From NCBI GenBank assembly GCA_947175645.1, contig CAMWNP010000009.1, positions 36,120 to 100,119 on the forward strand: a stretch of 64,000 bases of DNA. Reading direction: 5' to 3'. This document shows, piece by piece, positions 16,221 through 31,994 of this stretch (positions are counted from its first letter, which is position 1; each line of letters opens with the position of its first letter). Below the pieces are notes generated by a model. It ran no database searches, was not told where the DNA came from, and saw only the letters and a list, made by a program, of their open reading frames with translations. The translations under genes and the position numbers were made by a program. This stretch comes from an uncultured Porphyromonadaceae bacterium (GTDB lineage Bacteria; Bacteroidota; Bacteroidia; Bacteroidales; Muribaculaceae).

Positions 16221-18221
16221 ATGGAATATTACGGTAACAGACTTTGCATCTCAATGCGCGACCTTGTAGATGGCGGGATTATGTCCGAGCCTAACTACAA
16301 GCAGCTTGCCTCACGTGGCCGCTTTGATGTGGTCCGGAAGGGGCGCGGTCAGGGGTGCTATGCCTTGGTTGCTGTTGACAGTCTCCCCGATCGCTACAAA
16401 GAGAAGGTTGAAGAGGTATATCCCGGAGGATCACAGGCACGTCTTGAGGGATGGATTATCAGCAACTACGAGGTTGATCAGAAAGCTACCGCCTTCTTCT
16501 TCTCAAAAGAACAATGTGGTGTTGCACTACCGGCAGATAAAGCCAAAGAGTACATCACAAACGCCTCGGTACTGAACACCTGTATCAAGCTACATGACAG
16601 AGCCGCCACAGCTCAGAAACTCTTCGGAGGTAAATATGACTGGACTATGATGGCCGCTACCATTGAGACGCTCCGCAAGCGGTTCGGCCACACTCTCCCG
16701 GCTTCAACCCTTCGCTTCCGGAAGAAGGTGAATGACTACAAGACCAACGGGTACGCATGTCTGATCAGCGGGAAGTACGGCAATCAGTCGGCACGGAAGG
16801 TGGACTACAAGACCGAGCGACTTATCCTTGGTATCGCAGTACAACCTAACAAGCCTTGGAACACCAACGTCCTCGAATTATATAACTCCTTCGTAACCGG
16901 AGAGTATGATGTATTTGATCCGGATACCGGCGAACTATTCAATCCGGATGACTTCACTGACAAAAACGGAGAACCTATGGTTCTGAGCGAAGCTACTATA
17001 TGCAACTACCTCAACAAGCCTAAAAACAGGGCACTCATTGACCATCGCCTAATGACTCCGACAACCTTTATACACGAGGTAATGCCACACATGCACCGGC
17101 ATCATGGAGAATTCTCCCTCTCGAAGGTGTCGTTTGATGACCGTGACCTTCCGCGCAAACTCAAGGACACAAGAATACGTCCGAAGGCATATTATGCTTA
17201 CGATGTGACGAGCGGATGCTGTATAGGAGCAGCCTACAACCGAGCAAAGAACATCGATCTTGTGGTGGATATGTTCCGGGATATGTTCCGGCTGCTTGAC
17301 AGAAACGGTTGGGGATGCCCTGCCGAGGTCGAGGTTGAAAACCACCTGATGAGTCAATGGAAAGACTCCTTCCTCCGAGCCGGAGTTATGTTCCCCTTCG
17401 TGCGGTTCTGCGCTCCTATGAATTCACAGGAGAAACATGCAGAGCAGTTCAACGGAGCCAAAAAGCGTAGCATCGAACACCGAAACCACGTCGGTATCGG
17501 CAGGTTCTACGCCAAAAGCAGACAATACCGGACGGAAAGCAACAAGGTATTCGATGAGTTCAACAATACCTATGAGGATAAGGAATATTACACATGGGAC
17601 GAACTGATCGCCGACGACCGCCGGGACATCTACGAATACAACCACGCATTGCATCCCAATCAGAAAAAGTATAAGGGTATGACCAGATGGGACGTGCTTG
17701 TAGCCAATATCAACCCGACCCTTCAGCCTCTTGATAAGGCTACCATCGCACGATATGTCGGTGAGAAGGTCAGCACAACCATCCGGCGCAATTCTTACTG
17801 CCGGGTCCTTCACAAGGATTGGTGGCTGAGCAAAACAGAGGTCATCGAGCTTCTCGCACCGAACGACTACAAGGTCGATGCCTACTATCTCACCGATGAA
17901 GAGGGTAACGTGACCGACATGTTCATCTACCAAGGAGATATGTATATCGACCGCCTTGAGGATATAGGAACCTACAACACGGCACGGGCCGAGCAGACAG
18001 AGGAAGATGAAAAGATCTTCGTGGAGCAGCAGAAAAAGATCAGTCATTTCAAAAAATATGTCGAAGACCGTGCAATCGGGCGCGTCGGTGTAATAGAACG
18101 CGACTCACGGCCTTCTGCAGTCGAGGTGGAAGAAGTGGCCGTCCCGGAGCCGGAAACGCGAGAAACGGAAGATTTCAGCTATGGAACCGACTATGCCGCA
18201 CAGGGTCTTGAGGCAGTTTAG
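16221..18221 (+). CDS. Mu-type DDE transposase (A protein)
   Basis: A 666-residue transposase that catalyses phage integration and replicative transposition. The N-terminal ~70 residues (ISMRDLVDGGIMSEPNYKQL) resemble the winged-helix end-binding domain of MuA-type proteins. Residues ~150-230 are a further helical DNA-binding part. The RNase H-like catalytic core spans ~320-430, followed by a beta-barrel-like domain (~510-600). Candidate catalytic acids are D328 (YAYDVTSG), E373 (VEVENHL) and E408 (QEKHAEQFN). The 35-residue step between the last two fits this family, but a Glu at the second position, where Asp is usual, is odd. The C-terminal acidic tail would contact protein B. Next gene: the B ATPase. 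Confidence 0.93.
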   Translation: MEYYGNRLCISMRDLVDGGIMSEPNYKQLASRGRFDVVRKGRGQGCYALVAVDSLPDRYKEKVEEVYPGGSQARLEGWIISNYEVDQKATAFFFSKEQCGVALPADKAKEYITNASVLNTCIKLHDRAATAQKLFGGKYDWTMMAATIETLRKRFGHTLPASTLRFRKKVNDYKTNGYACLISGKYGNQSARKVDYKTERLILGIAVQPNKPWNTNVLELYNSFVTGEYDVFDPDTGELFNPDDFTDKNGEPMVLSEATICNYLNKPKNRALIDHRLMTPTTFIHEVMPHMHRHHGEFSLSKVSFDDRDLPRKLKDTRIRPKAYYAYDVTSGCCIGAAYNRAKNIDLVVDMFRDMFRLLDRNGWGCPAEVEVENHLMSQWKDSFLRAGVMFPFVRFCAPMNSQEKHAEQFNGAKKRSIEHRNHVGIGRFYAKSRQYRTESNKVFDEFNNTYEDKEYYTWDELIADDRRDIYEYNHALHPNQKKYKGMTRWDVLVANINPTLQPLDKATIARYVGEKVSTTIRRNSYCRVLHKDWWLSKTEVIELLAPNDYKVDAYYLTDEEGNVTDMFIYQGDMYIDRLEDIGTYNTARAEQTEEDEKIFVEQQKKISHFKKYVEDRAIGRVGVIERDSRPSAVEVEEVAVPEPETRETEDFSYGTDYAAQGLEAV

Positions 18222-18246
18222 AACGAAATTAAAACACTGTTAGAAT

Positions 18247-19119
18247 ATGATTACAACAGACATCAAAAACAAAATTCTCGCCGCTATAAAGGCGAACCGC
18301 GCCAACTATCCGAGTGACGCGAAGCATGCCGCCTCTCTGGGCATCACGACTTCGGTCTACAGTGCGGTCAAAAACGGTCAGACCGACCGTGTTCTGAGCG
18401 ATGCCAACTGGATAAGCATTGCCCGGAAACTCGGAGTCAGTCTCCGGGGAGAAATTGAATGGAAAGTAGCGAAGACTCCGACCTTCCAGTTTATCACGGC
18501 ACAGTTGGAGGCTTGCCAAGGGAGCGGCATTAGTGCTATCATGTGCGACCTCCCCAATATCGGGAAGACCTTTACAGCCCGGCACTATGTCAAGACCCAT
18601 CCAAACGCCATCTACATCGATTGCTCACAGGTCAAGACAAAACTCAAGCTCGTCCGGAAGATAGCCGGTGAGTTCGGAGTAGACAGTAAGGGCCGCTATG
18701 CAGACGTGTACGAAGATCTCGTCTATTACTTACGCTCCATCGAGAACCCTCTTATCATTCTTGATGAAGCCGGCGACCTCCAATACGAAGCCTTCCTTGA
18801 GCTGAAAGCATTGTGGAACGCCACCGAGAGATGCTGCGCCTGGTATATGATGGGAGCAGACGGTCTCAAGGAGAAAATCAACCGTTCAATCGAGTGCAAG
18901 AAGGTTGGCTACACCGAAATGCTCAGCCGATATGGTGACCGATACAGCAAGGTTACGCCGGACGATGGCAAGGAGCGTCAGAAATTCCTTCTCTCTCAAG
19001 CGCAGATTGTGGCTAAGCTCAATGCTCCGGAGGGAGCAGACCCCGGAGAGATTGCCCGGAAGAGTGGCGGTGGTCTCCGGCGAGTATATACAGAAATCGA
19101 AAAACTGAAAAGACTATGA
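18247..19119 (+). CDS. MuB-like AAA+ ATPase (target-capture protein B)
   Basis: A 290-residue ATPase that would bind target DNA and deliver it to transposase A. Residues ~5-75 form a helix-turn-helix domain (AASLGITTSVYSAVKNGQTD) like the N-terminal domain of MuB. The ATPase follows: Walker A CDLPNIGKTFTA (~101-112; first Gly of the usual GxxxxGKT replaced by Asp), Walker B LIILDEAGDL (~173) and an arginine-containing sensor region. The C-terminal end (ARKSGGGLRRVYTEIEKL) fits the MuB C-terminal helices. It overlaps the next gene by 4 bp. Confidence 0.92.
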   Translation: MITTDIKNKILAAIKANRANYPSDAKHAASLGITTSVYSAVKNGQTDRVLSDANWISIARKLGVSLRGEIEWKVAKTPTFQFITAQLEACQGSGISAIMCDLPNIGKTFTARHYVKTHPNAIYIDCSQVKTKLKLVRKIAGEFGVDSKGRYADVYEDLVYYLRSIENPLIILDEAGDLQYEAFLELKALWNATERCCAWYMMGADGLKEKINRSIECKKVGYTEMLSRYGDRYSKVTPDDGKERQKFLLSQAQIVAKLNAPEGADPGEIARKSGGGLRRVYTEIEKLKRL

Positions 19120-19382
19120 GTGCCTGTAAGATCAAAGCCACTTTTGCCGATGGTAGCCGTAGAGTGCTGAAAGATGTGTCTGAACTGGCAAAAGCCAACA
19201 AGCGACGTGAGATTCGGGTGGTATTTAAGGACGGCAGATACACTGACCTCCATTTAGGTCGAGTATGTCCCAAATTAGGGATAGTAAAGGTCAATAACTT
19301 TGGCCTACTTCCAGTAGGAATTAAGTTAGAAAAAATCATGGGATGGTGCTACAAGTTCCCCCATAAAACATCAAAACGATAA
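19116..19382 (+). CDS. Small basic early protein
   Basis: An 88-residue, Lys/Arg-rich, beta-rich protein of unknown family (ATFADGSRRVLKDVSELA, then REIRVVFKDGRYTDLHLG). ATGA overlap with the B gene indicates translational coupling. The basic charge suggests nucleic-acid binding; nothing more can be said. Confidence 0.65.
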   Translation: MSACKIKATFADGSRRVLKDVSELAKANKRREIRVVFKDGRYTDLHLGRVCPKLGIVKVNNFGLLPVGIKLEKIMGWCYKFPHKTSKR

Positions 19383-19386
19383 AGAT

Positions 19387-19617
19387 ATGACAGTGATTGA
19401 GAAACAATACATGGATTCGGTGATCAACATCAACCGAATGATGCGTAAGGCACAAGATGCCGAACCCGATTGGGAACAGCGTAGATATGAGATAGCTTTG
19501 GCTGTCTATATGGAACGGCGTAGGCTTATTTCATCACGAGAAGATGATGCCAAAGGAGCTGTTGAAGAGGCCGACTTACTTATAGCAGAACTGAAAAAGA
19601 CTCAAGAGAAAAAGTAA
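19387..19617 (+). CDS. Small helical early protein
   Basis: A 76-residue helical protein (MTVIEKQYMDSVININRMMRK at the start, many Arg/Glu heptads after). It lies 4 bp after the previous gene and 2 bp before the next. Unrecognised. Confidence 0.6.
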   Translation: MTVIEKQYMDSVININRMMRKAQDAEPDWEQRRYEIALAVYMERRRLISSREDDAKGAVEEADLLIAELKKTQEKK

Positions 19618-19619
19618 CG

Positions 19620-20246
19620 ATGGCCAAGCGAGCATATAGTCCTAAAGAGGTTCTTGCTAAGACCTACAAAACCTTGCCTTGGAGTGAGAAATGGAGCGGC
19701 CCATTCGGAGAAGTTCCAACTAACGAGACATGGTTTATCAGTGGTATATCAGCACAAGGCAAGAGCAGCTTCGTGATGCAGCTCGCCAAGGAACTTGCAA
19801 ACTACGGTATGGTTCTTTACTGCTCATACGAAGAAGGCATAAGCCAATCATTTAAAAAGCGAATGGAGCTATTTAAGATGAACGAGATACAAGGTCGGTT
19901 CAGAGTAATAACGGATGACTCTTTTGAAGAACTGATGAGCCGCCTTGCCAAACCCAAGAGTCCTCATTTCGTCATTATCGATAGTTTTCAGGAAGCGGAA
20001 ATGTCGTATGAGCAGTTCAAACAGATGAGAGCACGGTTTCCTGCAAAAAGTTTCATCTTTATCTCGCAAGAGCATAAGGGACAGCCAATGGGAAAACCGG
20101 CAGCACGACTTAAGTATAAAGCCGGGATAAAGATAAGAGTTGTTGGATACAAGGCTTTTTGTCAAGGCCGCTTTACCGGAGATCCCGGCAGCTATTATAC
20201 AGTGTGGGAAGAAGGCATTTTAAGAACCTCAAACAACATCGGATAA
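19620..20246 (+). CDS. RecA-fold ATPase (DnaB/RadA-like)
   Basis: A 208-residue single-domain ATPase. Walker A is GISAQGKSSF (~43-52), followed by the helix FVMQLAKELANYGMVLYCSYEE, which ends with the catalytic Glu typical of RecA/DnaB folds. Walker B is HFVIIDSFQE (~118-127), and a sensor motif FIFISQEHKG follows. It resembles the ATPase core of phage Sak4/RadA or DnaB-type proteins, but has no lid or helicase loader part. In an early operon with transposition genes it could help strand exchange or replication restart. Confidence 0.75.
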   Translation: MAKRAYSPKEVLAKTYKTLPWSEKWSGPFGEVPTNETWFISGISAQGKSSFVMQLAKELANYGMVLYCSYEEGISQSFKKRMELFKMNEIQGRFRVITDDSFEELMSRLAKPKSPHFVIIDSFQEAEMSYEQFKQMRARFPAKSFIFISQEHKGQPMGKPAARLKYKAGIKIRVVGYKAFCQGRFTGDPGSYYTVWEEGILRTSNNIG

Positions 20247-20465
20247 ATGAGTACCAAAAAAGAAATGATAATAATTGAGCCGGATGGCCGAATACACAAA
20301 GAAGGCTTCTGTTCCAGACCAATGACCTGTCCATATTGCGGAGGCAAAGGATGGTTCCACAGCGGTCAGCTTGAACCGGAAACAATAACGTGTCCTGATT
20401 GCGAGGGAACCGGCGAGGTCATCGCCTTCGTGACGGTAGATTGGAAACCTAATAATAAAAAGTAA
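20247..20465 (+). CDS. DnaJ-type zinc-finger small protein
   Basis: A 72-residue protein with two CxxCxGxG-type units, CPYCGGKGW (~28) and CPDCEGTGEV (~50), the cysteine-rich zinc repeat of DnaJ. The start codon directly follows the previous stop. A second such protein is encoded at 21701-21895 in the same operon. A zinc-binding adaptor for protein or nucleic acid is likely; the partner is unknown. Confidence 0.75.
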   Translation: MSTKKEMIIIEPDGRIHKEGFCSRPMTCPYCGGKGWFHSGQLEPETITCPDCEGTGEVIAFVTVDWKPNNKK

Positions 20466-20466
20466 T

Positions 20467-20955
20467 ATGAAACAGCAGGTAACAAACTTCGGACGGTTCT
20501 ACTCCGCTTTCCACAAACTCACCATTCACGGAGAGCCGGACGAGGCAAAGAGACAGTTCGTACTTCAGTACACAGCCGGACGCACGGACTCCATCAAGGA
20601 GATGACCAGAAAGGAATACACCGACCTATGTATCGCCATCGAGGGAATGAACGGCACAAGGGATGAACTGAAGCGTCGCCGGAGTATCGCTCTCAAGCTG
20701 ATGCAGGAACTTGAGGTGGATACTACCGATTGGGCCCAGATCAATGATTTCTGCCGACACCCCCGAATCTCCGGCAAAGCCTTCGGACAGCTCTCTATCG
20801 ATGAACTGATGGATCTTGCCACCAAACTCCGCTCCATCAAGCGCAAGGGGTGGCAGAGGAAGAAGGCCATCGGAATCCATAACCCGGAGTCACCCAAGCA
20901 GCACATCACCTACCTAATAAACCTTGCCGGTTATACCGGACCAACAATGAACTAA
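20467..20955 (+). CDS. GemA-like regulatory protein
   Basis: A 162-residue protein that resembles the GemA/gp16 family of Mu-like phages. It has an N-terminal helical part (FGRFYSAFHKLTIHGEPDEAKRQFV), the TGRTDSIKEMT-like patch and a C-terminal part DELMDLATKLRSIKRKGWQRK, where a conserved Lys/Arg-rich end is usual. In Mu, GemA alters host gene expression and DNA supercoiling; the detailed role here is unknown. Its place in the early operon after B is the family's normal position. Confidence 0.75.
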   Translation: MKQQVTNFGRFYSAFHKLTIHGEPDEAKRQFVLQYTAGRTDSIKEMTRKEYTDLCIAIEGMNGTRDELKRRRSIALKLMQELEVDTTDWAQINDFCRHPRISGKAFGQLSIDELMDLATKLRSIKRKGWQRKKAIGIHNPESPKQHITYLINLAGYTGPTMN

Positions 20956-20956
20956 C

Positions 20957-21121
20957 ATGAGTCTTACCGTTACAGTCAAAAATTATCTCACTTCTTATAC
21001 CTCCGACATGGAGAATGATGATTATATCGACTTCATGCGAGAACTTGCAGAGTGGGCAACAAGTCAAGCTGACATCGCCGAATACCGTGCGGAAAACCTC
21101 GATGAATTCAACGAAGAATAA
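20957..21121 (+). CDS. Small acidic protein, 54 residues
   Basis: ATG at 20957, 1 bp after the GemA-like stop, TAA at 21119-21121. The product starts MSLTVTVKNYLTSYTS, continues with an acidic helical stretch (MENDDYIDFMRELAEWATSQ) and ends DEFNEE. The tight operon spacing supports it. Its small size and charge are those of DNA-mimic or anti-host phage proteins, but this is only a possibility. Confidence 0.6.
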   Translation: MSLTVTVKNYLTSYTSDMENDDYIDFMRELAEWATSQADIAEYRAENLDEFNEE

Positions 21122-21146
21122 CAACCCCTATAACAACAATCCAACA

Positions 21147-21704
21147 ATGGCAAAAAGACAGAAAAAGACAGTCATCTCCGGCGTGAGCAAGGAAGCCGCC
21201 GAAGAAGCCTTTGCAACCTACGCCAAGGCAGACGCAGAACGTGCGAAAATCACAGCCGAGATTGAGCTGAAATGTGCACAGATCCGAGAGAAACATCAAG
21301 ACCGCCTGTCGCAACTCCAAGCAACACAGGACGAGGCTTTCGATACCCTTCAGGCATTCGCCACCGAGAATCAGCCGGAGCTCTTCAGTAAAAAGAAGAG
21401 TCTTGAGATGGTTCACGGCACCATCGGTTTCCGCACAGGCACCCCAAAACTCAAAACCCTCAAGGGTTTCACATGGGCCAGTGCACTACAACTTGTGAAA
21501 GAGTTTCTTCCCGGCTTTATCCGCTCCACCGAAGAGATCGCAAAGGACAGGCTCTTGTCGGAGCGAGACACAGAAGTCATCAAGCCCGGCGACCCACTCG
21601 GGCCAGGAGTCCCTCTCCGTGAGGTGATGTTCAAATGTGGCATTTCAGTCGTTCAGGACGAAACCTTCTTTGTTGAACCCAAAAAAGAGGAAGGAGCCGC
21701 ATGA
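21147..21704 (+). CDS. gam: Gam-like host-nuclease inhibitor
   Basis: A 185-residue DNA-end-binding protein of the Mu Gam family, a Ku-like fold that shields phage DNA ends from RecBCD/AddAB. A long antiparallel helical pair (~15-75: EEAFATYAKADAERAKITAE, then CAQIREKHQDRLSQLQ) precedes the conserved core (KSLEMVHGTIGFRTGTPKLK) and the C-terminal DNA-binding part (GISVVQDETFFVEPK). The ATG at 21147 was preferred because the upstream in-frame extension overlaps the 54-residue gene. It overlaps the next gene by 4 bp. Confidence 0.88.
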   Translation: MAKRQKKTVISGVSKEAAEEAFATYAKADAERAKITAEIELKCAQIREKHQDRLSQLQATQDEAFDTLQAFATENQPELFSKKKSLEMVHGTIGFRTGTPKLKTLKGFTWASALQLVKEFLPGFIRSTEEIAKDRLLSERDTEVIKPGDPLGPGVPLREVMFKCGISVVQDETFFVEPKKEEGAA

Positions 21705-21895
21705 AGAGAGAAATAGAACGACCTCCCAAGGTTGCCCTCTGCCGGATCTGCAAAGGAACCGGCAGAGTTTCCGGAGACGAAGACGGCGAGTCTCACACTT
21801 GTCTTCAGTGCGAAGGGAGCGGCAGAGTGACCGTGAGCTGCCAGATGACACTCGATATCAGACCATATAAACCAAAACCTCAAAAACAACGCTGA
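21701..21895 (+). CDS. Second DnaJ-type zinc-finger small protein
   Basis: A 64-residue protein with CRICKGTGRV (~16) and CLQCEGSGRVTV (~36), two CxxCxGxG units that would bind one zinc ion. ATGA overlap with gam. It is a relative of the 20247-20465 product. Confidence 0.75.
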   Translation: MKREIERPPKVALCRICKGTGRVSGDEDGESHTCLQCEGSGRVTVSCQMTLDIRPYKPKPQKQR

Positions 21896-21901
21896 TGAAA
21901 G

Positions 21902-22135
21902 ATGGGTAAGAGACCCGGACAGAGTTATCAGAAGCGAGTCGCAGAGATCAACAGGATATATGACCTGCATGCCAAACAAGGGATTCCCAACAGGGAAATA
22001 TGGCGCAGGTACATATATCCTGCTTATGGTATCTGTGAGCGAACGTTCTATAACTTATTGAAAGCACCGACAAAGCCGGGTTTCACAACACCCAATCAGA
22101 TGCCTAATCTTTTCGAAGACATCGATGGCGAATAA
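21902..22135 (+). CDS. Small helix-turn-helix protein, candidate late activator
   Basis: A 77-residue basic protein. Residues ~15-52 (RIYDLHAKQGIPNREIWRRY, then GICERTFYNLLK) look like a helix-turn-helix with ERTFYNLL as recognition helix. It lies near the end of the early operon, where Mu-like phages encode their middle or late regulators (Mor, C), and overlaps the next gene by 11 bp. It is a candidate to bind the paired palindromes at 30933-30972; this is inference. Confidence 0.6.
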   Translation: MGKRPGQSYQKRVAEINRIYDLHAKQGIPNREIWRRYIYPAYGICERTFYNLLKAPTKPGFTTPNQMPNLFEDIDGE

Positions 22136-22682
22136 TTACGACCAAATAATCAAGAACATTCTCCGGGACATTCAGGTGGAAATGGCTGACGAGTTCGACA
22201 GGAACTTCGAGCGTCAGGCATTCTTCTCGGAGGCTTGGCAGAGACGCAAGAGTCCCACACGGCCCGGCGGTCATATCCTTGTTGACACAGGCGGTCTTCG
22301 CCGGAGCATCACAAGCCGGGCGACTCCGAACAGCATAATCTTCCGTTCAGATCATCCGGCAGCAGCCATTCATAACGAGGGTGGAGAAATCAAGGTAACA
22401 GCCAAAATGAAGAAGTTCTTTTGGTATAAATACTACAGCACCACCGGTTCGTTCGGGAGGCGGAAGGACGGCACAAAGCGAAAGGATAAACGAACCATTC
22501 AGCTATCGACAGAAGCCGAATTCTGGAAGTTTATGGCTCTGATGAAGGTCGGCTCCACGATCAAGATACCGCGCCGTCAGTTCCTTGGAAATGCTCCGGA
22601 GGTAGAAAAGACCGTCAGAGAGATCATCGAAGAGAATATCACAGAATTTTTCAATACAGATTTTGACATAATAGAAAGATGA
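22125..22682 (+). CDS. Phage virion morphogenesis protein (Mu gpG-like)
   Basis: A 185-residue protein of the virion-morphogenesis/tail-completion type. Conserved features include an N-terminal helix with MADEFDRNFERQAFF, the strand-turn HILVDTGGLRRSITSR, AAIHNEGGEIKVTAKMKKFF, and the final IPRRQFLGNAPEVEKTVREII (R-Q-F-L-G near the end is the family hallmark). It would act where head and tail join. A structural gene at the end of the early operon is unusual; the other head genes are on the opposite strand. Confidence 0.82.
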   Translation: MANNYDQIIKNILRDIQVEMADEFDRNFERQAFFSEAWQRRKSPTRPGGHILVDTGGLRRSITSRATPNSIIFRSDHPAAAIHNEGGEIKVTAKMKKFFWYKYYSTTGSFGRRKDGTKRKDKRTIQLSTEAEFWKFMALMKVGSTIKIPRRQFLGNAPEVEKTVREIIEENITEFFNTDFDIIER

Positions 22683-23170
22683 GAAAAGAAGTTTACAACA
22701 AACTGAGAACGAGACTTCACTCCTTATGCGTAAACGCAGCCGGAGAATATGAAATTGCCCCGGCAGAGATGGATGATGACCTGAGTAACCGGGCAATCAA
22801 ACATATCGATCTGTGGAACCAGAACGTTGAATTCATCGAGCAGGAAACTGCTTGGGAGCGTCCTGCAGTATTCATCGAGTTTGAGCCCGTGCGTTGGGAC
22901 TCCTTAGTGCCGGGCGTTGAGTATCGTGCTGAGGTAAGAGTTCGTCTTCATATTGTCACTGACTGGGCAACTACGGTCGGAGATGAAGCCGACGGATCCG
23001 GCAAATTCTTTGAGTTGCCGGATAAGATCCATGATGTGCTTGCAGGTCTGGAAGGTGATAATTTCAAGGATTTTACCCTCGAAGAGTCTCACACCAACCA
23101 CAATCACGAGGAGATAGTTGAGAGCATCGAAGTGTATAGCTTTATTGCATTCAAACACAGAAGCGAATAA
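22679..23170 (+). CDS. Probable tail terminator-like protein
   Basis: A 163-residue soluble protein with alternating strands and helices (RPAVFIEFEPVRWDSL, then AEVRVRLHIVTDW). The size and the position next to a gpG-like gene are those of tail-terminator or neck proteins. No motif is decisive. It overlaps the previous gene by 4 bp and is the last gene before a strong terminator. Confidence 0.6.
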   Translation: MRKEVYNKLRTRLHSLCVNAAGEYEIAPAEMDDDLSNRAIKHIDLWNQNVEFIEQETAWERPAVFIEFEPVRWDSLVPGVEYRAEVRVRLHIVTDWATTVGDEADGSGKFFELPDKIHDVLAGLEGDNFKDFTLEESHTNHNHEEIVESIEVYSFIAFKHRSE

Positions 23171-23192
23171 ACGCGCTGTGTCGCGTTAAAGT

Positions 23193-23229
23193 AAGAGAGC
23201 CGTTACCTTTATTGGGTTACGGCTCTCTT
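23193..23229. terminator. Hairpin between converging operons
   Basis: A 15-bp stem with one mismatch (AAGAGAGCCGTTACC against GGTTACGGCTCTCTT) and a 7-nt loop, 22 bp after the last early gene and 53 bp beyond the end of the leftward methylase gene. It ends on AA/TT without a long T run, so it may work in both directions. Confidence 0.75.
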
Positions 23230-23281
23230 GCGATATATGGGCGAGTAATCGGCTTGCCGCTTGCGCAGCAAGAAAAAGGCA

Positions 23282-24136
23282 TTATGCAGCGTTGTCAGGC
23301 GGTAGTTCCGGCACTGTGAAGAGCATGATGTCCGTGTAACGGGCATTATAGTTCATTGTTGCCTTAAACTCCCTCCTCTGACACCGGGCGAATGGGTCGC
23401 CAAGCGATGGATGGCGTCCCATCCACTCGCACAGTTCAACAATGCATGATTTCTCGGAGGTGAAATATATAAAATTATGACCGGGCAAGACGGAAAGCAC
23501 ATCGAGGTAGTCAGCGAGTCGCCAATACATTTTGTAAGTTCCGACATCTGTGGACAGATATGGAGGATCAACAAGGAAGACAACACCAGGAGTGTCTTTG
23601 AAACGTTCAAACAGCTCCCGGTAATCACAAGACTCTATCTCAAGTCCGGCGAGATAATCCGGGCATAGCTCATAATCAGCTTTACGCACATTGTTGTATA
23701 ATGTCTCAGACCGCATGCCATTGATGGTGAGCTTATATTTCATCGAGAACATGAGAGAAGATGAAAGTGTGATAAAGTCGAGATATCCATTCTCGCGTTC
23801 CTCCGTCTCAAGCAGCTCGAAGATGCGGTCCCTCGCTTTGCCAGTGATAGGCTTATGCCGGGGAACTTGCTCCGAGATTTGCCGGATCTGAGATAGGAGC
23901 CTGTTCGTCCGGGGAATATTGCCGATGCGTTGTCTGTAATTGTCAAAATCATTGTATATGACCCTTGACTCCGGGTGGAAATGCTTTGTGATATGAGAAA
24001 GCAAGCCGGAGCCTCCGAACAGGTCTACGAAGATAGTCCCGGCTGGATACTGCTTTATCACCTCGATAAAATGTTTAGCGAACATGCGCTTTTGTCCTAC
24101 GAAAGGAAGAGGTGCCGAAAGATAAAGTTTGCTCAT
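23282..24136 (-). CDS. DNA adenine-N6 methyltransferase (D12/Dam class)
   Basis: A 284-residue methylase that would transfer methyl from S-adenosylmethionine to adenine N6. The AdoMet motif FVDLFGGSGLL is at ~34-44, after the family start FVGQKRMFAK (~12). The catalytic motif IV DPPYLS is at ~190, and DVLSVLPGHNFIYFTS follows. Motif order is that of alpha-class, Dam-like enzymes. No restriction partner is present, so it probably protects phage DNA or modulates expression, like Mom/Dam functions in Mu-like phages. It overlaps the upstream dCMP-methylase-like gene by 4 bp (ATGA) and is the last gene of the leftward block. Confidence 0.92.
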   Translation of the reverse strand: MSKLYLSAPLPFVGQKRMFAKHFIEVIKQYPAGTIFVDLFGGSGLLSHITKHFHPESRVIYNDFDNYRQRIGNIPRTNRLLSQIRQISEQVPRHKPITGKARDRIFELLETEERENGYLDFITLSSSLMFSMKYKLTINGMRSETLYNNVRKADYELCPDYLAGLEIESCDYRELFERFKDTPGVVFLVDPPYLSTDVGTYKMYWRLADYLDVLSVLPGHNFIYFTSEKSCIVELCEWMGRHPSLGDPFARCQRREFKATMNYNARYTDIMLFTVPELPPDNAA

Positions 24137-24777
24137 ACGTTCAATTCAAATGTTACTGCATCCTCTCCGGCGAGAAGACGGTGGGTATTTTCGATATTAT
24201 TATCATATATATGGACATTGCCCAGGAACAGTGTAATAGACTTGAGAGGGAAGTCAATGTGCCGGGCCATCAGGTAGAGGTGATATATATCTGCCGGCAG
24301 TCCAAGGTTAGCGTCGGAACTTCGCTGATAAGCAGATACAATCAGTTCGCCGTCTTCGATTTGGAACTGTACGAGCGACAGACACGGAGCCTGATTGCTC
24401 TCCGCTTCGGTGGCTCCGAGAAACAGCACATAGTTCTTTGATGGGCGTCGTTCCTCATTGATCCGGGCCAGCAGAGGTGGCAGTTTCTCAAAATATGTTG
24501 GGTAAGAATTGACCAGGATAGAACCGCAATAATCCCACCAATGGATACCGGCTTCCCGGTACTTCTCCACTGACCGTTCACCGCTCATGAAGAGCCGGAG
24601 TTCTGAACGGAGCTTCTTACGGGCCAGTCCGTGCCCCTCGAAAATTTCAAGCAGATCTGCCGGCGAAAGTGAGAGCTGCTCATTGATCAGATATGTTATT
24701 TTGCCTTTCTTGTTGGTCTGCTGTTTTCCTTTTGCGAGAATCCGGGCAAGAATCTGGTGATATTTATTATGAGACAT
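24133..24777 (-). CDS. Thymidylate synthase homologue, predicted dCMP (hydroxy)methylase
   Basis: A 214-residue member of the thymidylate synthase superfamily. From the start at 24777: E59 in SELRLFMSG, W81-D82, catalytic C132 (APCLSLVQF), R152 in YQRSSD, D155, then LGLPADI with D163, and VHIY with H189 and Y191. The spacings C132-R152 (20) and R152-D163 (11) equal those of C146-R166-N177 in E. coli ThyA. The Asn that selects dUMP is therefore Asp, as in T4 dCMP hydroxymethylase. The C-terminus is ~30 residues shorter than ThyA, lacking the closing segment. The promoter box at 24801-24808 excludes the longer start at 24813. Product probably 5-methyl- or 5-hydroxymethyl-dCMP. Confidence 0.8.
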   Translation of the reverse strand: MSHNKYHQILARILAKGKQQTNKKGKITYLINEQLSLSPADLLEIFEGHGLARKKLRSELRLFMSGERSVEKYREAGIHWWDYCGSILVNSYPTYFEKLPPLLARINEERRPSKNYVLFLGATEAESNQAPCLSLVQFQIEDGELIVSAYQRSSDANLGLPADIYHLYLMARHIDFPLKSITLFLGNVHIYDNNIENTHRLLAGEDAVTFELNV

Positions 24778-24800
24778 TTGGGTGAAAGTTGATGATGTCG

Positions 24801-24808
24801 CAAAGGTA
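24801..24808 (-). promoter_or_regulatory. -7 box for the modification genes (TACCTTTG)
   Basis: Exact TAnnTTTG match pointing to the left, 24 bp upstream of the ATG at 24777. It would give the two modification genes their own transcript, besides readthrough from the head operon. No good -33 box was seen. Confidence 0.5.
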
Positions 24809-24846
24809 GACACGTACTGTCAGTGGAGCACTACCGAAACAGGGAA

Positions 24847-25089
24847 TCACACTGCACCGGAATTGCAGTCTCTTTGAAACCGCTTTATAAGCGAATAGAC
24901 CTTGCGCTCAGAGATATGATAATTGGTGGCCAGACATGCCACCGCATACGTAACCTTGTCTCCAGTAGCAACCATTCTGTTGAAGTCAGCGAAAAGGTCG
25001 ATATAGTCAGTATCCTCAAGCCGGATTCCGGACTTTCTTAATCTTTCAAGCAGTTCTCGGTTGAATTGCAGAATTTCAAATATTGTCAT
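24847..25089 (-). CDS. Small protein between MuF and the modification genes
   Basis: An 80-residue protein starting at the ATG at 25089 (MTIFEILQFNRELLERLRKS). The C-terminal half (YAVACLATNYHISERKVYSLIKRFQRD) resembles a helix-turn-helix, with SERKVYSLIKRF as recognition helix. It could be a regulator of the modification genes or the nearby RNAs. A longer in-frame start at 25125 lies within the structured RNA region and is less likely. Confidence 0.6.
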   Translation of the reverse strand: MTIFEILQFNRELLERLRKSGIRLEDTDYIDLFADFNRMVATGDKVTYAVACLATNYHISERKVYSLIKRFQRDCNSGAV

Positions 25090-25241
25090 TTCACGTTTTT
25101 TTTTTGTAATTTTGCATCGTCTCACTTATAAACACAAACACCACTGGGCGAGTAGAGGGCATTATGCCCCCGGCTCGCGCCCAGTGGTGTATCGTGTTAA
25201 AAGTAAGTGAGACGACTATTTAACAGGCCGGGGGCATTTTT
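25083..25241 (+). ncRNA. Candidate structured RNA with promoter and pseudoknot-like pairing
   Basis: Promoter TTG (25083-25085), 21 bp, TAATTTTG (25107-25114), start near 25120. The RNA forms a coaxial rod: 12 bp (25117-25128 with 25204-25215), 5 bp (25131-25135 with 25194-25198) and a perfect 13 bp (25138-25150 with 25178-25190). In the apical loop, ATGCCCCCGGC (25164-25174) is perfectly complementary to GCCGGGGGCAT (25227-25237), which is followed by TTTTT. The loop-tail pairing would be a pseudoknot or an alternative terminator. No open frame is carried. Some of the outermost pairs lie at or just before the expected start, so part of the structure may instead serve at the DNA or opposite-strand RNA level. 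Confidence 0.6.
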
Positions 25242-25369
25242 CACGCCCTCCCCTAATTATCAAGAGGATCTACTTTGGTTATGAAAATATACATAAGTCA
25301 AAATATAATCATCTGCTTTAGCATGAAATGTATAATATAGTTAATTTATATATATTTTTTGCTTAGAAA

Positions 25370-25474
25370 TTGCAATAAACAAAATAAAGCATTATTTTTG
25401 CATTCAAATAATGAGTGGTTGATTCCTAATGGGGGTGACTGAAGCCCCGCTGGACAATCGCTCATTCTTTTTTT
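25370..25474 (+). ncRNA. Candidate small RNA with own promoter and terminator
   Basis: Promoter TTG (25370-25372), 20 bp, TATTTTTG (25393-25400). The predicted ~68-nt RNA starts near 25407 and folds into a 12-bp stem (25410-25421 with 25455-25466, two G-U pairs) holding an inner GGGG/CCCC hairpin (25432-25448). A run of seven T follows at 25468-25474. It overlaps the 3' end of the MuF gene in antisense. The stretch between this and the preceding RNA (25242-25369) is AT-rich and otherwise empty. Confidence 0.62.
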
Positions 25475-26772
25475 AATACATGATAGATAGTCTCACTACG
25501 GTTTTTATATACCTCCATTGTGATTATCCAAGAATCATCACCTTGTATAAGAGAATATTTATTATATCCTGAGACACCACGATGCCGTTTAACATCAACA
25601 TTCTTTCTGTCCTTTGGATTTGATAGGTCTTTCCCTTCTCCAAGGGGACTATGGCGCAAAAACACCATATCGTCGAGATGCATCCTGATTGCTTCATACA
25701 TCTCCGCCTGTTCAAGATCTCGGGCATGCCCTATTGCTCTGCCAAAAGTCTTCTTCGTCTGATAATAAGTGCCGGTCTGAAGCCTGGATGCTGTAACATT
25801 GTTCAGAACAGTTACTTCATTTTTCAGTTCTTTAACGTATTCCCATACTCGTTTTACGGTTTCATAACTCCTGCATGTCCTAAGGAACCTGCAAGCCTCG
25901 CACAGATGATTGTCCGGGATGAACTTGGCGAAGGATATCTTTCCCTTAGCGATATCGCAGTCGCGGCATCGGTGGATGGTATAGGGATTATAGTCAGGCA
26001 CGGTCTTCTGCTCAAGTCCGGGATTGAAACGGAATATACCCTTTGAATCCCTCTGCAGTGCTTCATCACCAAGTCGCATTGCCTCATCATGAGGAGTGAC
26101 CGGATACTTTGACTTGCGTACCTGTACGACAGTACACCTGCAGTTCCACCCATTGGGAGGATAGAACTCTGCCCAAAAAGGATCAGATGGTGATAGTGTT
26201 ACTCCATCGAGAGCAGCATGTTCCGGACGCACTTTATCATCCTTCTGAGTTCTGTATTGAAGATTGTACCTGTCTCCGTCCTGCATGAATCCGTCCCATT
26301 TAGCAGCCATTTCAGCCGATGCAGACACGAAATTATATTCTGCCCGTAGGTAGTTGCTGTTATAGGTTTGATCGATACTTCGAACATCATTCAAAAAGCG
26401 TTCGAACGGTTTTCGTTCGCCATTCTCATCGATGAGTGAAGGGAAAGCCTCGTTAAGTTCATGGAAGGTCTTGATCCCGGAGAATATGAAATCAGAGCGG
26501 TGCAACCTTTTACGCATCGCATCTGACATTTCCACTTTCTCAAAAGAGGAATCAAGGACTGATGAATGACTCTCAATGAATTCCCGGACTTGAGGCGTTG
26601 AGAGGATATCGATAGACAACTGTGCGCCTTCAGTCTTATACACAGCCTTCATCATACTGTCAAAGAGTACGGACAACTGCTTCCGGAGTTCTTCCTCTCG
26701 CTCCTTGCGACCGGCCATGAACACATCGGGTGCGTCCGAAAGCAGCCGGGCATAGCGTTCATGCAGCCCCAC
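25462..26772 (-). CDS. Minor head protein MuF (gp30/F-like) with extra C-terminal domain
   Basis: A 436-residue head morphogenesis protein bound to the portal, probably ejected with DNA. The MuF core is at ~150-235, with RPEHAALDGVTL and PPNGWNCRCTVVQV, the family hallmarks. A cysteine cluster follows (CRDCDIAKG, then CEACRFLRTC; ~265-300), possibly a zinc site. The last ~95 residues (HARDLEQAEMYEAIRMHLDD, then GYNKYSLIQGDDSWIITM and SETIYHVLKKE) are a separate alpha+beta domain that resembles the barnase/EndoU/RelE-like nuclease domains often fused to MuF proteins. The core is certain; a toxin role of the tail domain is inference. Confidence 0.88.
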   Translation of the reverse strand: MGLHERYARLLSDAPDVFMAGRKEREEELRKQLSVLFDSMMKAVYKTEGAQLSIDILSTPQVREFIESHSSVLDSSFEKVEMSDAMRKRLHRSDFIFSGIKTFHELNEAFPSLIDENGERKPFERFLNDVRSIDQTYNSNYLRAEYNFVSASAEMAAKWDGFMQDGDRYNLQYRTQKDDKVRPEHAALDGVTLSPSDPFWAEFYPPNGWNCRCTVVQVRKSKYPVTPHDEAMRLGDEALQRDSKGIFRFNPGLEQKTVPDYNPYTIHRCRDCDIAKGKISFAKFIPDNHLCEACRFLRTCRSYETVKRVWEYVKELKNEVTVLNNVTASRLQTGTYYQTKKTFGRAIGHARDLEQAEMYEAIRMHLDDMVFLRHSPLGEGKDLSNPKDRKNVDVKRHRGVSGYNKYSLIQGDDSWIITMEVYKNRSETIYHVLKKE

Positions 26773-26786
26773 ATAGTCAGTGGGGC

Positions 26787-28130
26787 TTAGTCGAAAAAAG
26801 GTGTGCCGTTCTTTTGCTTCTTGTCAGAGTCAGAATCATCATCTCCGTCCTCGTTACCCGAAAGAGAGGAGAAATCGAGCCTGTTACCGACAGGCATATT
26901 GTATTTGTCAGCGAAATAGGACGGGTCAACATCATAACGGTCTGAGATCATAGTCTCATATTGTATCTGTTGCTCGGGAGTGTAGTCCACAGCGTCATCC
27001 CATTCAAAGCGAAGGCCTTTGAGCGGAAAGCCATGCCTGACCATGCGGGGAATCAGTTGATTGTTAACGATGTCGCGAAGCATGTCCTTATCCGATTCCA
27101 CAAGATTCTCGAATACCTTAAGATGGGTCTGTGACTGAGACAAAGATGAACCGTCCTCGATAGTCATGGTCTGACCGATGATGAGTTTCGACAGTTCCGA
27201 ATTGGCACGGTCGATGCGCTTGTCATAGACATTGAAGGCATCCCCCTTACCCGACTCCACGAACTGTACCTCAGTTTCCATGCCGGTCACCATTCCGAGA
27301 TTGTTCCCGGCTTCTTGGATCATCTGTTCAAGTCGTTTCCATTCCTTCGGGTCGCGAGTGGTTGTCTTGGCTACGCGCATAGGCATGCCGAATATCTCGG
27401 CAAACGCATCCCAAAATGCAAGGGCATTCTTTTTGGGAATGGTCTGCTGCGCTGCTTTCAGATATTTGCCAAGATCATCTGAACGTCCGGCTTCGATAAG
27501 CCAATCGGAGAAAGGTGCCTCATGGTAGTCTATACCGGACTTCCAATCGTCTCCGACATTCTGTACACACCGGTGATATTCCGGAATAACGTGCTTGCGC
27601 GGAATGAGATTTACTCCATCATAGCACAAGCAACCGTCACCATCCTGTGTCAGATCACCGAGTTCCACAAGAGAGTGACCCCACCAACGGGACTCAAGAC
27701 ACAGTTCCATGAGTTGCTTGAACCACGATTGATCGAAATAGTGTCTTGCATCTTCATCTTCATCGCCGGTATTATTAACGAGTTTGAATGAACGGGACAT
27801 CACGAATCCTCTCCGCTGATCAATACAGCCGGTGAGGTGGAGATCAACATCCACATCCCTGTATATGTCATAGAGCCGCTGACGGTTGGGACTATCGACA
27901 TTGAGAGCCATTTGCCAAGCAGCCCTCCAATCCGCGATGTCCTTCCGGGTCAGAGCGTCAGTGGTGCGATGTATCTCCATGACAATACTCTTAAACTTTG
28001 CTCTCCCTTCCGGTTTGGCAAGGTTTACATCTCCGTATGGAGTTTTGAAGACAATGGGAATGCCTTCTTGAGAAGGAGCCACGTTCTTGTTTGAACGGAA
28101 GTTATCAAGGAATTTGTCAAGTAAGCTCAT
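26787..28130 (-). CDS. Portal protein (Mu gp29-like, DUF935)
   Basis: A 447-residue portal, the ring at the head vertex through which DNA passes. It shows the DUF935 features: an N-terminal basic part, RDVDVDLHLTGCIDQRRGFV (~80), PFSDWLIEAG, NALAFWDAFAEIFGMPMRV (~240), a helical crown (VYDKRIDRANSELSKLIIGQ) and an acidic C-terminus. ATG at 28130 chosen; the longer frame overlaps the gp36-like gene. It sits between the gp36-like and MuF genes, the Mu order. Confidence 0.92.
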   Translation of the reverse strand: MSLLDKFLDNFRSNKNVAPSQEGIPIVFKTPYGDVNLAKPEGRAKFKSIVMEIHRTTDALTRKDIADWRAAWQMALNVDSPNRQRLYDIYRDVDVDLHLTGCIDQRRGFVMSRSFKLVNNTGDEDEDARHYFDQSWFKQLMELCLESRWWGHSLVELGDLTQDGDGCLCYDGVNLIPRKHVIPEYHRCVQNVGDDWKSGIDYHEAPFSDWLIEAGRSDDLGKYLKAAQQTIPKKNALAFWDAFAEIFGMPMRVAKTTTRDPKEWKRLEQMIQEAGNNLGMVTGMETEVQFVESGKGDAFNVYDKRIDRANSELSKLIIGQTMTIEDGSSLSQSQTHLKVFENLVESDKDMLRDIVNNQLIPRMVRHGFPLKGLRFEWDDAVDYTPEQQIQYETMISDRYDVDPSYFADKYNMPVGNRLDFSSLSGNEDGDDDSDSDKKQKNGTPFFD

Positions 28131-28134
28131 AGAA

Positions 28135-28551
28135 TTACCAATTATGCCGGAGACGGGGTTCCGAGTGATAGATTGTGCCGAATGAGCCTTTATGATCATC
28201 TTCCTCTACAGTCGGAAGGTCGGGTATGATCTTGCCGGACTGAACGCCTTCGAGCCACTCGATAGCACGTTCATATCGCTCCTTGCGAATCTCTATGCCC
28301 ATCTTCTGAGGTAGCGAGGCCACAAGGTGGTAGAGTGCAATGTCTGCGGTTCGCATTACGATGAGCCGGTTCCGGGCATCCCCTTCGGCTGAAAATATGG
28401 CATTGCAGTCATAGACCGGGCGCAAATATCCGGATATCTCCTCGATAGCCTCAAGTTCCGCATTGGCACGGTTCTCCTCAGAGGCACGTGAGACAACCTT
28501 AAGTGCCTCTTCTCCTATGACCACAGCGTAATCGTTATCTGTCAAAAACAT
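28135..28551 (-). CDS. Mu gp36-like head-tail connector protein (DUF1320)
   Basis: A 138-residue protein beginning MFLTDNDYAVVIGEEALKVV. EAIEEISGYLRPVYD (~40) and a helix DIALYHLVASLPQKMG, followed by ERYERAIEWLEGVQSGKI, are the typical DUF1320 pattern. This family forms a connector or adaptor below the portal. It starts 10 bp after the small basic gene and ends 4 bp before the portal gene. Confidence 0.88.
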   Translation of the reverse strand: MFLTDNDYAVVIGEEALKVVSRASEENRANAELEAIEEISGYLRPVYDCNAIFSAEGDARNRLIVMRTADIALYHLVASLPQKMGIEIRKERYERAIEWLEGVQSGKIIPDLPTVEEDDHKGSFGTIYHSEPRLRHNW

Positions 28552-28561
28552 CGCTCAAGAA

Positions 28562-28792
28562 TTAGGTTGTAACAAATAGAGCGTGTTTCTCGATGTCATC
28601 AACCGTCACACCCTTACGGAACCGCTTGCGCTTGATGAGTTCTTTTATGGCCTGTTTCGGTACAGCCTTGAGGGAGCCATTGAGATTGATGACGTAGTAC
28701 TTCATGCCGAATATTCCGGCAAGTTCCTTGGCCTTTCGCACAGCCCTTTTATATCGCCATGCGAGATAATACTTCTTGATCCTGTTGAACAT
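28562..28792 (-). CDS. Small basic head-region protein
   Basis: A 76-residue, strongly basic protein (MFNRIKKYYLAWRYKRAVRK, then AIKELIKRKRFRKGVT). The ATG at 28792 lies 1 bp after the terminase stop. It may bind DNA or be a packaging accessory. No family recognised. Confidence 0.65.
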   Translation of the reverse strand: MFNRIKKYYLAWRYKRAVRKAKELAGIFGMKYYVINLNGSLKAVPKQAIKELIKRKRFRKGVTVDDIEKHALFVTT

Positions 28793-28793
28793 A

Positions 28794-30362
28794 TCACCAT
28801 GTATTTTTGTGGTGCCGACGTGAAATCGCCACCGGTTTGAATGTTTCCTGTCTTGTATTGCGCTGCAGATACCAAATGGCACCTTCATCAGCATCGGGTG
28901 CGTCATCATGGACGCGAGAGCCTCGTTCAAGGGCAAGTGTCTGTTCGATGCCTACCTCCATGTCCGGAGAATCTTTCATCTCCTCGTTATAGAATACATA
29001 GCCACGTTCCCAAAGAGGGGATACAGCCTCGATGCGTTGTATCTTCTCCGGCTTTTTGCGAGTGTCCGGAATAATGGGCAATTGATATCCTCTGAGATTT
29101 CCTTCGGTGGCGAATTCATCAAGAATGATATCCTGCATGAAGTTGGCCTCCATGTAGAACGTTACAGCGACATTCTCCGGCAATCTCTCGTAGAGATTAT
29201 AGAGCCATCTGACCATTCCGGAAACAGTGTCTTGCCGGACGTATGTATCGATGAGATGCAGTTCCGTTCCGATCTTACCCCACAGGCGACAGGCTTTGTA
29301 GTCGTTGGCAGTGGTTGACTTGAACGAAGGGTCGGTATAGCACACAAGCATATCGTACTTGTCAAGCTTTGGCATGCGCTTGAACCGTATCCACTCGTGC
29401 CGGAATATGGTACCGTCTGTGATGGGATTGTGCATCATCTCCTTCTCCCATGCCCTATAACCGACAAAGTCTTTATACGCCTGTGCCTCTTCCTTAGTCC
29501 ATTTTTCTGACCAAACCGGATTCCCATCTCGATCGACCGCTTTGATCTCCGAGACATGGACACCCTTGGAGGCAGCGATGTTGGCAAGGACAGAATTCTT
29601 GGAGATAAGGTTTCCTACCATGATGAACCTGCCACGTCCTACATCGAGCGCACCGAAAAGAGCCTCCTTGACCCAATCGGTCAAATCCTTCACTCGCTTT
29701 TCATTCCGGCAGAGTTCATCGTCATCCAAGTCATCAATCACGATGTAATCCGGACGAGCCTCACGGTCTCGGAGACCACGAGGGGACTGACCGCGACCTA
29801 CTGCAAGGAACTTCGCGCCTCCCCTTGTCTTAAATTCTCCTTCAAGCCAAGAGCCGAGGTTCTTCTGCTCACCAAAATCGGCAATGAGTTTCTGATTATA
29901 TTCGAGTTCAGCCTGTAAGTCACCGAGCAGACGTGTTGCACTATCCTCTGACTTGCCGACAGTGATCATAAAGTTTATCAGCCTCTTCGGTTGGAATATC
30001 AGCCATAGGGGTGTGAAAACACCAATATGAGTTGATTTGGCATGACCGCGAGGCCACTTGAATACAGCCTTGAGATTAGGCGTGTTCCTTATCTTGAGAG
30101 CAGCCTGCGAATGGAATGGTGCGTTGTGGATTGTCTTTATGACTTCGCCGGTGGTCTTGTCGCGCAAGGTAAGGAAATGGGAGAAATAGTATTCGCAGAA
30201 TTCATCATAGTTAGAGAGCAGCCGCTTGATGCGCCTGTCGCGCTCAACCGGTGTTTCCTTTGCTATGGACATAGATACAGCGGTCAGCGTCTGAACTTCG
30301 CGGCAGTGTTCCTTCCACCGTTCAAACGCCTCCTTCTGCTCCTTAGTCATCTTTGCTCCCAT
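28794..30362 (-). CDS. Terminase large subunit (Mu gp28-like)
   Basis: A 522-residue packaging motor. ATPase domain: Walker A-like WPRGHAKSTH (~104-113), Walker B YIVIDDLDDDE (~205-215) and a coupling motif MVGNLI. RNase H-fold nuclease: first acid in CYTDPSFKST (~330) and the late acid pair in DDAPDADEGAIWYL (~495). It lies 1 bp downstream of the small subunit. Mu-like phages package by headful from the left end into host DNA, as this enzyme would be expected to do. Confidence 0.95.
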   Translation of the reverse strand: MGAKMTKEQKEAFERWKEHCREVQTLTAVSMSIAKETPVERDRRIKRLLSNYDEFCEYYFSHFLTLRDKTTGEVIKTIHNAPFHSQAALKIRNTPNLKAVFKWPRGHAKSTHIGVFTPLWLIFQPKRLINFMITVGKSEDSATRLLGDLQAELEYNQKLIADFGEQKNLGSWLEGEFKTRGGAKFLAVGRGQSPRGLRDREARPDYIVIDDLDDDELCRNEKRVKDLTDWVKEALFGALDVGRGRFIMVGNLISKNSVLANIAASKGVHVSEIKAVDRDGNPVWSEKWTKEEAQAYKDFVGYRAWEKEMMHNPITDGTIFRHEWIRFKRMPKLDKYDMLVCYTDPSFKSTTANDYKACRLWGKIGTELHLIDTYVRQDTVSGMVRWLYNLYERLPENVAVTFYMEANFMQDIILDEFATEGNLRGYQLPIIPDTRKKPEKIQRIEAVSPLWERGYVFYNEEMKDSPDMEVGIEQTLALERGSRVHDDAPDADEGAIWYLQRNTRQETFKPVAISRRHHKNTW

Positions 30363-30363
30363 A

Positions 30364-30834
30364 TCAAGCCAATGCTCCCTTATTGAATGACTCTACAAGA
30401 TACACATCCTGTAATTTATTTATGGTCTTGAGAAGTTCCGGAGTAATCATTGGATCTGACTTCGCACGGAACTCAAGCCATTTGGAGAAAGCCATGAATA
30501 CCTCGATGGCATTAACCACATTTGCCTGTGACTTGTCAAGTTTGTCGATGGCAGCGGTCAGTTTGGAAAGCTGGTCGCCAAGGCTGTCCGCAAGCTTCGG
30601 CTCTGATTCGACCATGTCAAGAAGGTCATTGACTCTGAGAAGCAACTTCCTTATAAGTTCCGGACGCGTGATTGTTTTTGCCGCACGGGTCTCTTTCCAA
30701 CCACCCTCCTTGCACCATTTTGAGAGCGACTGTCTCGTCACACCGACCTTATCGGCAATCTCGATCTGTTCCATCCCGGACATGTAGAGATTCCGGGCGA
30801 TGTCTTTTTTCTTTTCGAGTTCTGCTTTTGTCAT
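30364..30834 (-). CDS. Terminase small subunit (Mu gp27-like)
   Basis: A 156-residue DNA-recognition subunit. The N-terminal helix-turn-helix (ARNLYMSGMEQIEIADKVGV, TRQSLSKWCKEGGW, ~13-47) is followed by a helical oligomerisation part (ELIRKLLLRVNDLLDMVESE). First gene of the leftward late block, starting 64 bp after the promoter box at 30898-30905. Confidence 0.88.
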   Translation of the reverse strand: MTKAELEKKKDIARNLYMSGMEQIEIADKVGVTRQSLSKWCKEGGWKETRAAKTITRPELIRKLLLRVNDLLDMVESEPKLADSLGDQLSKLTAAIDKLDKSQANVVNAIEVFMAFSKWLEFRAKSDPMITPELLKTINKLQDVYLVESFNKGALA

Positions 30835-31979: not shown

Positions 31980-31994
31980 ACCTAAATATCAACA

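Follow-up and report, generated by a model that had tools for sequence, protein, structure and literature searches.

Hankyphage-type transposable phages carry a cassette in which a structured RNA leader and a small HTH gene precede a gene for a protein of the thymidylate synthase (TS) superfamily, with or without a DNA methyltransferase (MTase) gene. Judging from the residues and gene associations described below, this cassette may be a cytosine-modification operon, a reading that we hold tentatively, with a little less than even confidence; that cytosine in the phage DNA is modified is plausible. We found the cassette in a Mu-like, hankyphage-related prophage (13337..48017, ends approximate) within the 64,000-nucleotide stretch of DNA analysed here (hereafter the window). 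The prophage also encodes a CI-like repressor, MuA/MuB-like proteins, Gam, tail proteins, MuF, a portal protein and a terminase.

A short thymidylate synthase relative in a Mu-like prophage

The TS gene lies on the minus strand (24133..24777), starts with ATG at 24777 and encodes 214 amino acids. Its product belongs to the TS superfamily by its match to PF00303 (E = 1.6e-20; 73.9 bits against a gathering cut-off of 24.3) and also matches phrog_160 (E = 1.2e-27); its matches in the PDB are thymidylate synthases, the best at E = 1.9e-11. It does not have the marks of a thymidylate synthase proper, scoring 53 bits against a cut-off of 108.35 for the NCBIfam equivalog TIGR03284 and having neither Asn177 nor the C-terminal tail. 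Two more specific assignments were tried and rejected. The methanogen-type TS (TIGR03283) is also short, but its cut-off is 174.55 bits and the protein scores 37. The phage family with the second-best score, phrog_5682, was considered as a special short family; it matched 169 of 296 genomes, and the listed places were ORFs of at least 264 aa corresponding to canonical ThyA.

The gene is the 'thymidylate synthase' gene of hankyphage-type Mu-like phages. In hankyphage p00 (BK010646.1) it and its neighbor are annotated as thymidylate synthase and DNA methyltransferase N6. A separate full-length ThyA is encoded in the host genome (E = 2.9e-129), so thymidylate supply by the phage is not needed. 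Our literature search, judged by titles and the starts of abstracts, returned no paper on the enzyme, and it returned none on hankyphage and DNA modification; neither PMC12135933 nor PMC6199706 uses the word 'thymidylate' in its main text. PADLOC has no family for the TS or the HTH protein of the cassette.

Relatives of the gene are common, and the phages that carry it are a widespread group in gut bacteria. In IMG/VR, single-sequence patterns recovered 132 stretches encoding them and profile patterns 277, and a further 141 stretches were found in GTDB contigs, mostly of Bacteroidales by the titles shown. We fetched the best 80 of the 277 and the best 80 of the 141, and took 161 loci in all (L001-L080, L163 and L182-L261), some of which represent the same strain in two collections. 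All but one (160/161) gave a TS protein aligned over >190 residues; 130 loci were distinct by DNA, and together with the window they provided 125 distinct proteins. Annotated phage records yielded 23 matches at 60-80% identity. Among the matches listed, 21 phage records fell at 75.8-79.4% (19 Bacteroides phages and two 'Bacteriophage sp.'), and the next row stood at 26.5%. Within the phylum, 26 of 296 genomes matched the TS profile A1 at E 1e-10, only the window's own genome and one other (G206) closely; the remaining 24, at E 2e-14 to 1e-10, were considered as intermediate relatives and rejected, their ORFs being of 264-317 aa like ThyA. Asp-bearing enzymes of the Triscuit gp66 type had two relatives in IMG/VR.

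Active-site residues point to a probable cytosine-nucleotide specificity

The earlier note had set C132, R152 and D163 of the protein against C146, R166 and N177 of E. coli ThyA. All three residues are in place, and their spacings of 20 and 11 equal those of ThyA. The note had also proposed that the uracil-recognizing Asn is replaced by Asp, as in T4 dCMP hydroxymethylase (dCH, gp42), and D163 indeed falls on N177 in all alignments and on D179 of T4 gp42 by hhalign; no alignment placed an Asn at this selector position, which is Asp in 125/125 distinct proteins. Since D163, C132 and R152 are invariant across these proteins, the match is not a chance one. Other positions unchanged in all 125 include E59, W80, W81, D82, L88, N90-Y95, S113, K114, N115, Q129, P131, L133, Q151-D155 (with S153 and D155), H189 and Y191. 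The folate-activating Glu58 is thus kept as E59, the W80 equivalent is also kept, and so are the equivalents of Cys146, Asp169, His207 and Tyr209. Purifying selection on the gene is strong (median dN/dS 0.075 in 125 usable pairs of 400 sampled), and none of 131 reading frames (the 130 distinct loci and the window) is cut short.

Replacing Asn177 of TS by Asp changes its substrate from dUMP to dCMP, according to works cited in PMC8670742. Positions 177 and 147 are reported to separate best the TS homologs of contigs with modified cytosine from the rest, Asp177 standing mostly on the modified contigs and Asn on others (PMC8670742); section 11 of that paper names no residue at 147 for the modified contigs. 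Here the pair is Asp163 and Leu133, the latter occupying the position-147 equivalent in place of His. With these residues, a dCMP-type specificity for cytosine nucleotides is likely.

The C-terminal closing segment is missing, as the earlier note had observed, and the protein stops shortly past the H207/Y209 block. The note's further suggestion, that this loss might signal a new mode of action, did not stand: T4 dCH is also without the TS tail and binds folate nonetheless (PMC6400193), so the missing tail speaks for a resemblance to T4 dCH and, on its own, not for a new mechanism.

Elsewhere the active site has changed. The residue three before the catalytic Cys is Gln129 in 125/125 proteins; in T4 dCH an acid at this place is needed for hydroxylation, and D145N is inactive (PMC6400193). 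The phosphate-clamp pair R126/R127 aligns to S113/K114 in three alignments, hhalign among them, or, by our own reading, to K114/N115 if one extra gap is allowed. The Tyr94 site aligns to Leu88 by MAFFT, phmmer and hmmsearch and to Tyr95 by hhalign, the alignment being uncertain in this region. It is possible, though on the unlikely side, that the nucleotide site has been kept and the full TS cycle has not: the protein, without the Arg-Arg clamp, the tail, the T4 acid and perhaps the Tyr94 base, would bind a cytosine nucleotide and carry out an incomplete reaction or another one, such as depleting or sensing dCMP/dCTP or countering a nucleotide-based host defence. The invariance of Gln129, Ser113-Lys114-Asn115 and Leu88 in all 125 proteins, unlike the aligned TS and T4 dCH rows, fits such a reaction, whereas the retention of every one of the Glu58, Cys146, Asp169, His207 and Tyr209 equivalents speaks against it, and Tyr92 or Tyr95 may supply Tyr94 where the alignment is uncertain.

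A methyltransferase and an HTH protein accompany the enzyme

Downstream of the TS gene, with a 4-bp overlap, the earlier note had placed a DNA adenine methylase-type gene. We confirmed a D12-class MTase there (23282..24136, minus strand, 284 aa), which matches PF02086 (E = 2.5e-10; 41 bits against a cut-off of 22) and the PADLOC Type II MTase family (E = 4.1e-49) and has no PDB relative at E 0.01; from its family it would be predicted to methylate adenine. A D12 MTase adjoins TS in 112 of the 130 distinct loci, in the order TS-MTase in 64 and MTase-TS in 48. It is absent with room to see it in nine loci, and the contigs of another nine are too short. Upstream of TS, a small HTH protein of 80 aa (24847..25089, minus strand) matches phrog_17790 (E = 7e-29) and shows a Mor-family likeness that is below cut-off (E = 0.003); it is probably the regulator of the cassette. 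The HTH gene was found upstream of TS in 110/130 loci; of the 20 loci where it was not found, 15 offer >1500 nt of upstream sequence and five offer less.

The MTase slot can hold other genes. In two of the nine loci without an MTase, L036 and L259 (B. gallinarum), it is occupied by an ABC-ATPase/GNAT protein, whose gene overlaps a formyltransferase gene in L259 (pair at 3335-4904) and in L199 (B. clarus; 8932-10501); L036, whose ORFs agree with those of L199 up to the point where its sequence stops, contains just the first of the two genes (8932-10035). The ABC-GNAT domain matches are weak (PF00005, 2.5e-5; PF13508, 1.4e-4), and the formyltransferase is over its cut-off (PF00551, E = 2.6e-9; 37.5 versus 26.1 bits). 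By these domains, the two genes look like another base-modification pair.

The other seven of the nine (L038, L047, L073, L078, L230, L233 and L244) have TS with no partner recognizable by eye. In L073 and L078, where TS lies at 8001-8633, neither an HTH nor an MTase relative was found, nor a cassette-strand match to the leader described below at E 0.01; a reverse-transcriptase-like ORF, identified by eye, lies upstream of TS in both.

A covarying RNA leader precedes the HTH gene

The HTH gene is immediately preceded by a structured RNA leader (25118..25216, minus strand). Its base stem is conserved, its arms are hypervariable but compensated, and its apex, CCGGGGGC...CCCTC, is conserved too. 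A 180-nt fold has an energy of -80.1 kcal/mol (z -9.3). Most of the relatives searched carry such an element ahead of the HTH gene; across them the sequences of the base (GTCTCACTTA / TAAGTGAGAC) and of the apex are preserved, and the arms vary yet stay complementary. We counted covariation over 25 pairs in 38 aligned elements (alignment A2), the structure being derived from the same alignment. Pairing was kept in 88.7% of cells versus 71.5% in shuffles, 186 cells had changed on both sides versus 71, and the covariation score was 0.445 versus 0.152, a value that none of 500 shuffles reached and of which slid versions attained at most 0.189. Coarser measures discriminated less: 15 both-side-changed pairs, reached by 57/500 shuffles, and 52 further pair types, reached by 21/500. 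Six of the seven base-stem pairs are invariant, and one apical pair is G-U in 34/38 elements, consistent with an RNA that is read solely in the direction of the cassette.

Of the 154 loci that have the HTH gene, 67 contain both strict base motifs; among the 87 that do not, some offer little upstream sequence. A leader model, R1, was run against 76 chosen sources; with E at most 0.01, and counting the cassette strand alone, it hit 66 of them, among which the window itself and close duplicates of a few of the other rows in the model figure by construction. At that threshold and on that strand it matched none of L020, L030, L033, L047, L049, L073, L078, L196, L242 and L243. In the window's own genome, searched on both strands at E 0.1, it matched one place only. 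When viral contigs were collected with nothing but one form of the apex pattern, the stored stretch contained the HTH gene in 13/13 cases, TS in 10/13 and the MTase in 11/13. No Rfam family matched the leader at its gathering cut-off, and elsewhere in the window Rfam matched only three tRNAs; two miRNA matches, which at E = 0.034 and 0.043 fell far short of their cut-offs, were taken as chance. The covarying leader, with no Rfam family at cut-off, is a new element of the cassette.

On the opposite strand, a second hairpin followed by a T-run (25410-25474, plus strand, z -3.7) may be a terminator or a small RNA. The TA..TTTG ahead of it resembles a Bacteroidetes promoter.

The cassette differs in place between the window and hankyphage p00

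Hankyphage p00 has an orthologous cassette (TS 79%, MTase 63% and HTH 61% identical) with the same RNA leader, in another position and orientation: in the window it sits inside the prophage, flanked by the tail-completion and phrog_6911 genes on one side and by MuF on the other, and in p00 at the right end of the phage. The p00 proteins matching the window range from 26% to 79% identity, those outside the cassette from 26% to 77%. The cassette stands toward the top of this range, yet its degree of conservation is matched by the lysin (77%) and, at 61% each, by the hub protein and a neighboring protein. It is mainly the difference in place and orientation that suggests that the cassette moved as a unit.

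The earlier note had seen no dCTPase, kinase or glycosyltransferase in the prophage, and our scan agrees: none gave a Pfam match in the 29 window ORFs scanned (the TS, MTase and HTH ORFs among them), a set in which many ORFs have no match at all and which leaves the long tail proteins and several short prophage ORFs outside. Among 10 unannotated p00 proteins, likewise, there was no Pfam match to a dCTPase, nucleotide kinase or glycosyltransferase.

Discussion

If the cassette modifies cytosine, C132 of the TS-fold protein would attack C6 of the cytosine-nucleotide ring and form the usual covalent adduct. The substrate would most likely be dCMP, D163 serving for cytosine and S153 being kept, and the one-carbon unit would come from methylene-tetrahydrofolate, for which E59 is kept. 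C5-substituted dCMP, carrying hydroxymethyl or methyl, would be released, raised to the triphosphate by host kinases and inserted by the polymerase. In phage DNA fresh from transposition, a fraction of the cytosine would then be modified and escape restriction, the adjacent methyltransferase would add a second mark, and the HTH protein and the RNA leader would limit expression of the cassette. What the data show directly is the anatomy, from the protein family, its residues and their conservation under purifying selection to the associated genes and the RNA leader; the substrate, the product, its entry into DNA and its purpose are inferred. The chief weakness of the reading concerns the nucleotide pool: since no dCTPase, nucleotide kinase or glycosyltransferase was found in the scanned ORFs, native dCTP would compete, and a nucleotide-pool route could give only partial substitution and would also mark host DNA.

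For this reading we counted the invariant residues, the low dN/dS, the host ThyA, MTase adjacency in 112/130 loci, Asp177 on modified contigs, the absence of the tail in T4 dCH, the ABC-GNAT/formyltransferase pair in the MTase slot and the right-end position in p00. Against it we counted Gln129, the changed clamp, the placement of Tyr94 on Leu88 or Tyr95, the nine loci of 130 with TS and no MTase, and the location of the window cassette away from the phage end.

Two variants of the chemistry have to be weighed. In one, which we think unlikely, the leader-controlled cassette would make C5-modified cytosine without the T4 support genes. Its enzyme would be one from which the tail, the acid that activates water in T4 dCH, the Arg-Arg clamp and perhaps the Tyr94 base are gone, and which therefore acts on another substrate form or yields another C5 product, one that swappable partners (the D12 methyltransferase, or ABC-GNAT with formyltransferase) would complement or build on. 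In the other, which seems to us quite improbable, the same C5 chemistry would be applied to another cytosine substrate: CMP, as in MilA, or dCTP, or cytosine in DNA or RNA. The phosphate clamp is unlike those of both TS and T4 dCH, and in MilA, too, Lys replaces the clamp Arg and aids ribose binding (PMC5175136). The main switch of MilA, however, is Ala for Ser167, loss of a serine that disfavours ribose letting it take CMP (PMC5175136), and here that serine is Ser153 in 125/125 proteins. The family of the MTase partner acts on DNA. Against this variant, the protein retains equivalents of His207 and Tyr209, the two residues with which TS and T4 dCH bind the 3'-OH, and no TS-fold enzyme is known to act on polymers. 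That the protein is an ordinary phage thymidylate synthase, as annotated in p00 and others and as the retained W80 equivalent might suggest, is very improbable given Asp for Asn177 in all proteins compared, the missing tail, the score below the NCBIfam equivalog cut-off and the host ThyA.

If these phages carry modified cytosine, as the cytosine-modification reading proposes, this would bear on their passage through host restriction barriers, on their sequencing and engineering, and on how a temperate phage can use nucleotide modification without harming its host. Upon hankyphage induction all genes are reported to be expressed and most proteins detected, and a CRISPRi-inducible laboratory strain carrying a hankyphage exists (PMC12135933), so the question of modification is directly testable. 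That strain is B. thetaiotaomicron jmh43, and the TS of its hankyphage is 78.5% identical to the one in the window. The covarying RNA leader provides a second testable object beside the enzyme.

Comparison with known systems

T4 gp42 and the phage protein share the TS superfamily, the Asp at the 177 equivalent, the absence of a C-terminal tail, and equivalents of Glu58, the catalytic Cys, Arg166, Ser167, Asp169, His207 and Tyr209. They differ at the third residue before the Cys (Asp in T4, with Asp or Glu expected of the gp42 type; Gln129 here) and in the clamp, T4 Arg123/Arg124 not being kept; for T4 Ser94-x-Tyr96, the Tyr94 site falls by alignment on Leu88 or Tyr95. The phage protein is also 32 aa shorter, is borne by a temperate transposable phage, and has no dCTPase, kinase or glucosyltransferase beside it among the scanned ORFs. 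In profile comparison it matched ordinary TS over 200 columns (E = 9.7e-19) and T4 gp42 over 75 (E = 1.2e-6), and in a tree of 42 proteins the phage clade stands apart from T4 dCH, with a deep split that is weak (77/28 support). The likeness to T4 gp42 is limited.

The CMP hydroxymethylase MilA acts on a cytosine nucleotide, as the phage protein probably does, and also has a Lys in the phosphate-clamp region, but its Ser167 position is occupied by Ala and it carries a large helical region at the C-terminus (PMC5175136). ThyA, with which the protein shares the superfamily and the catalytic Cys, is nearer than T4 gp42 in the profile comparison; the phage protein departs from it in having Asp where ThyA has Asn177 and Leu where ThyA has His147, in a Gln at or beside Leu143, and in the absent tail, the altered clamp and a Tyr94 that is not placeable by alignment. 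As a whole, the cassette recalls com-mom of phage Mu, a modification operon at the right end in which a small regulator gene is joined to a DNA-modification gene, with RNA structure in the leader, and whose mom product acts on adenine. The cassette, too, combines a small probable regulator, a putative modification gene and a structured leader RNA, interior in the window and at the right end in p00; the likeness is one of arrangement, and no relation in sequence is claimed.
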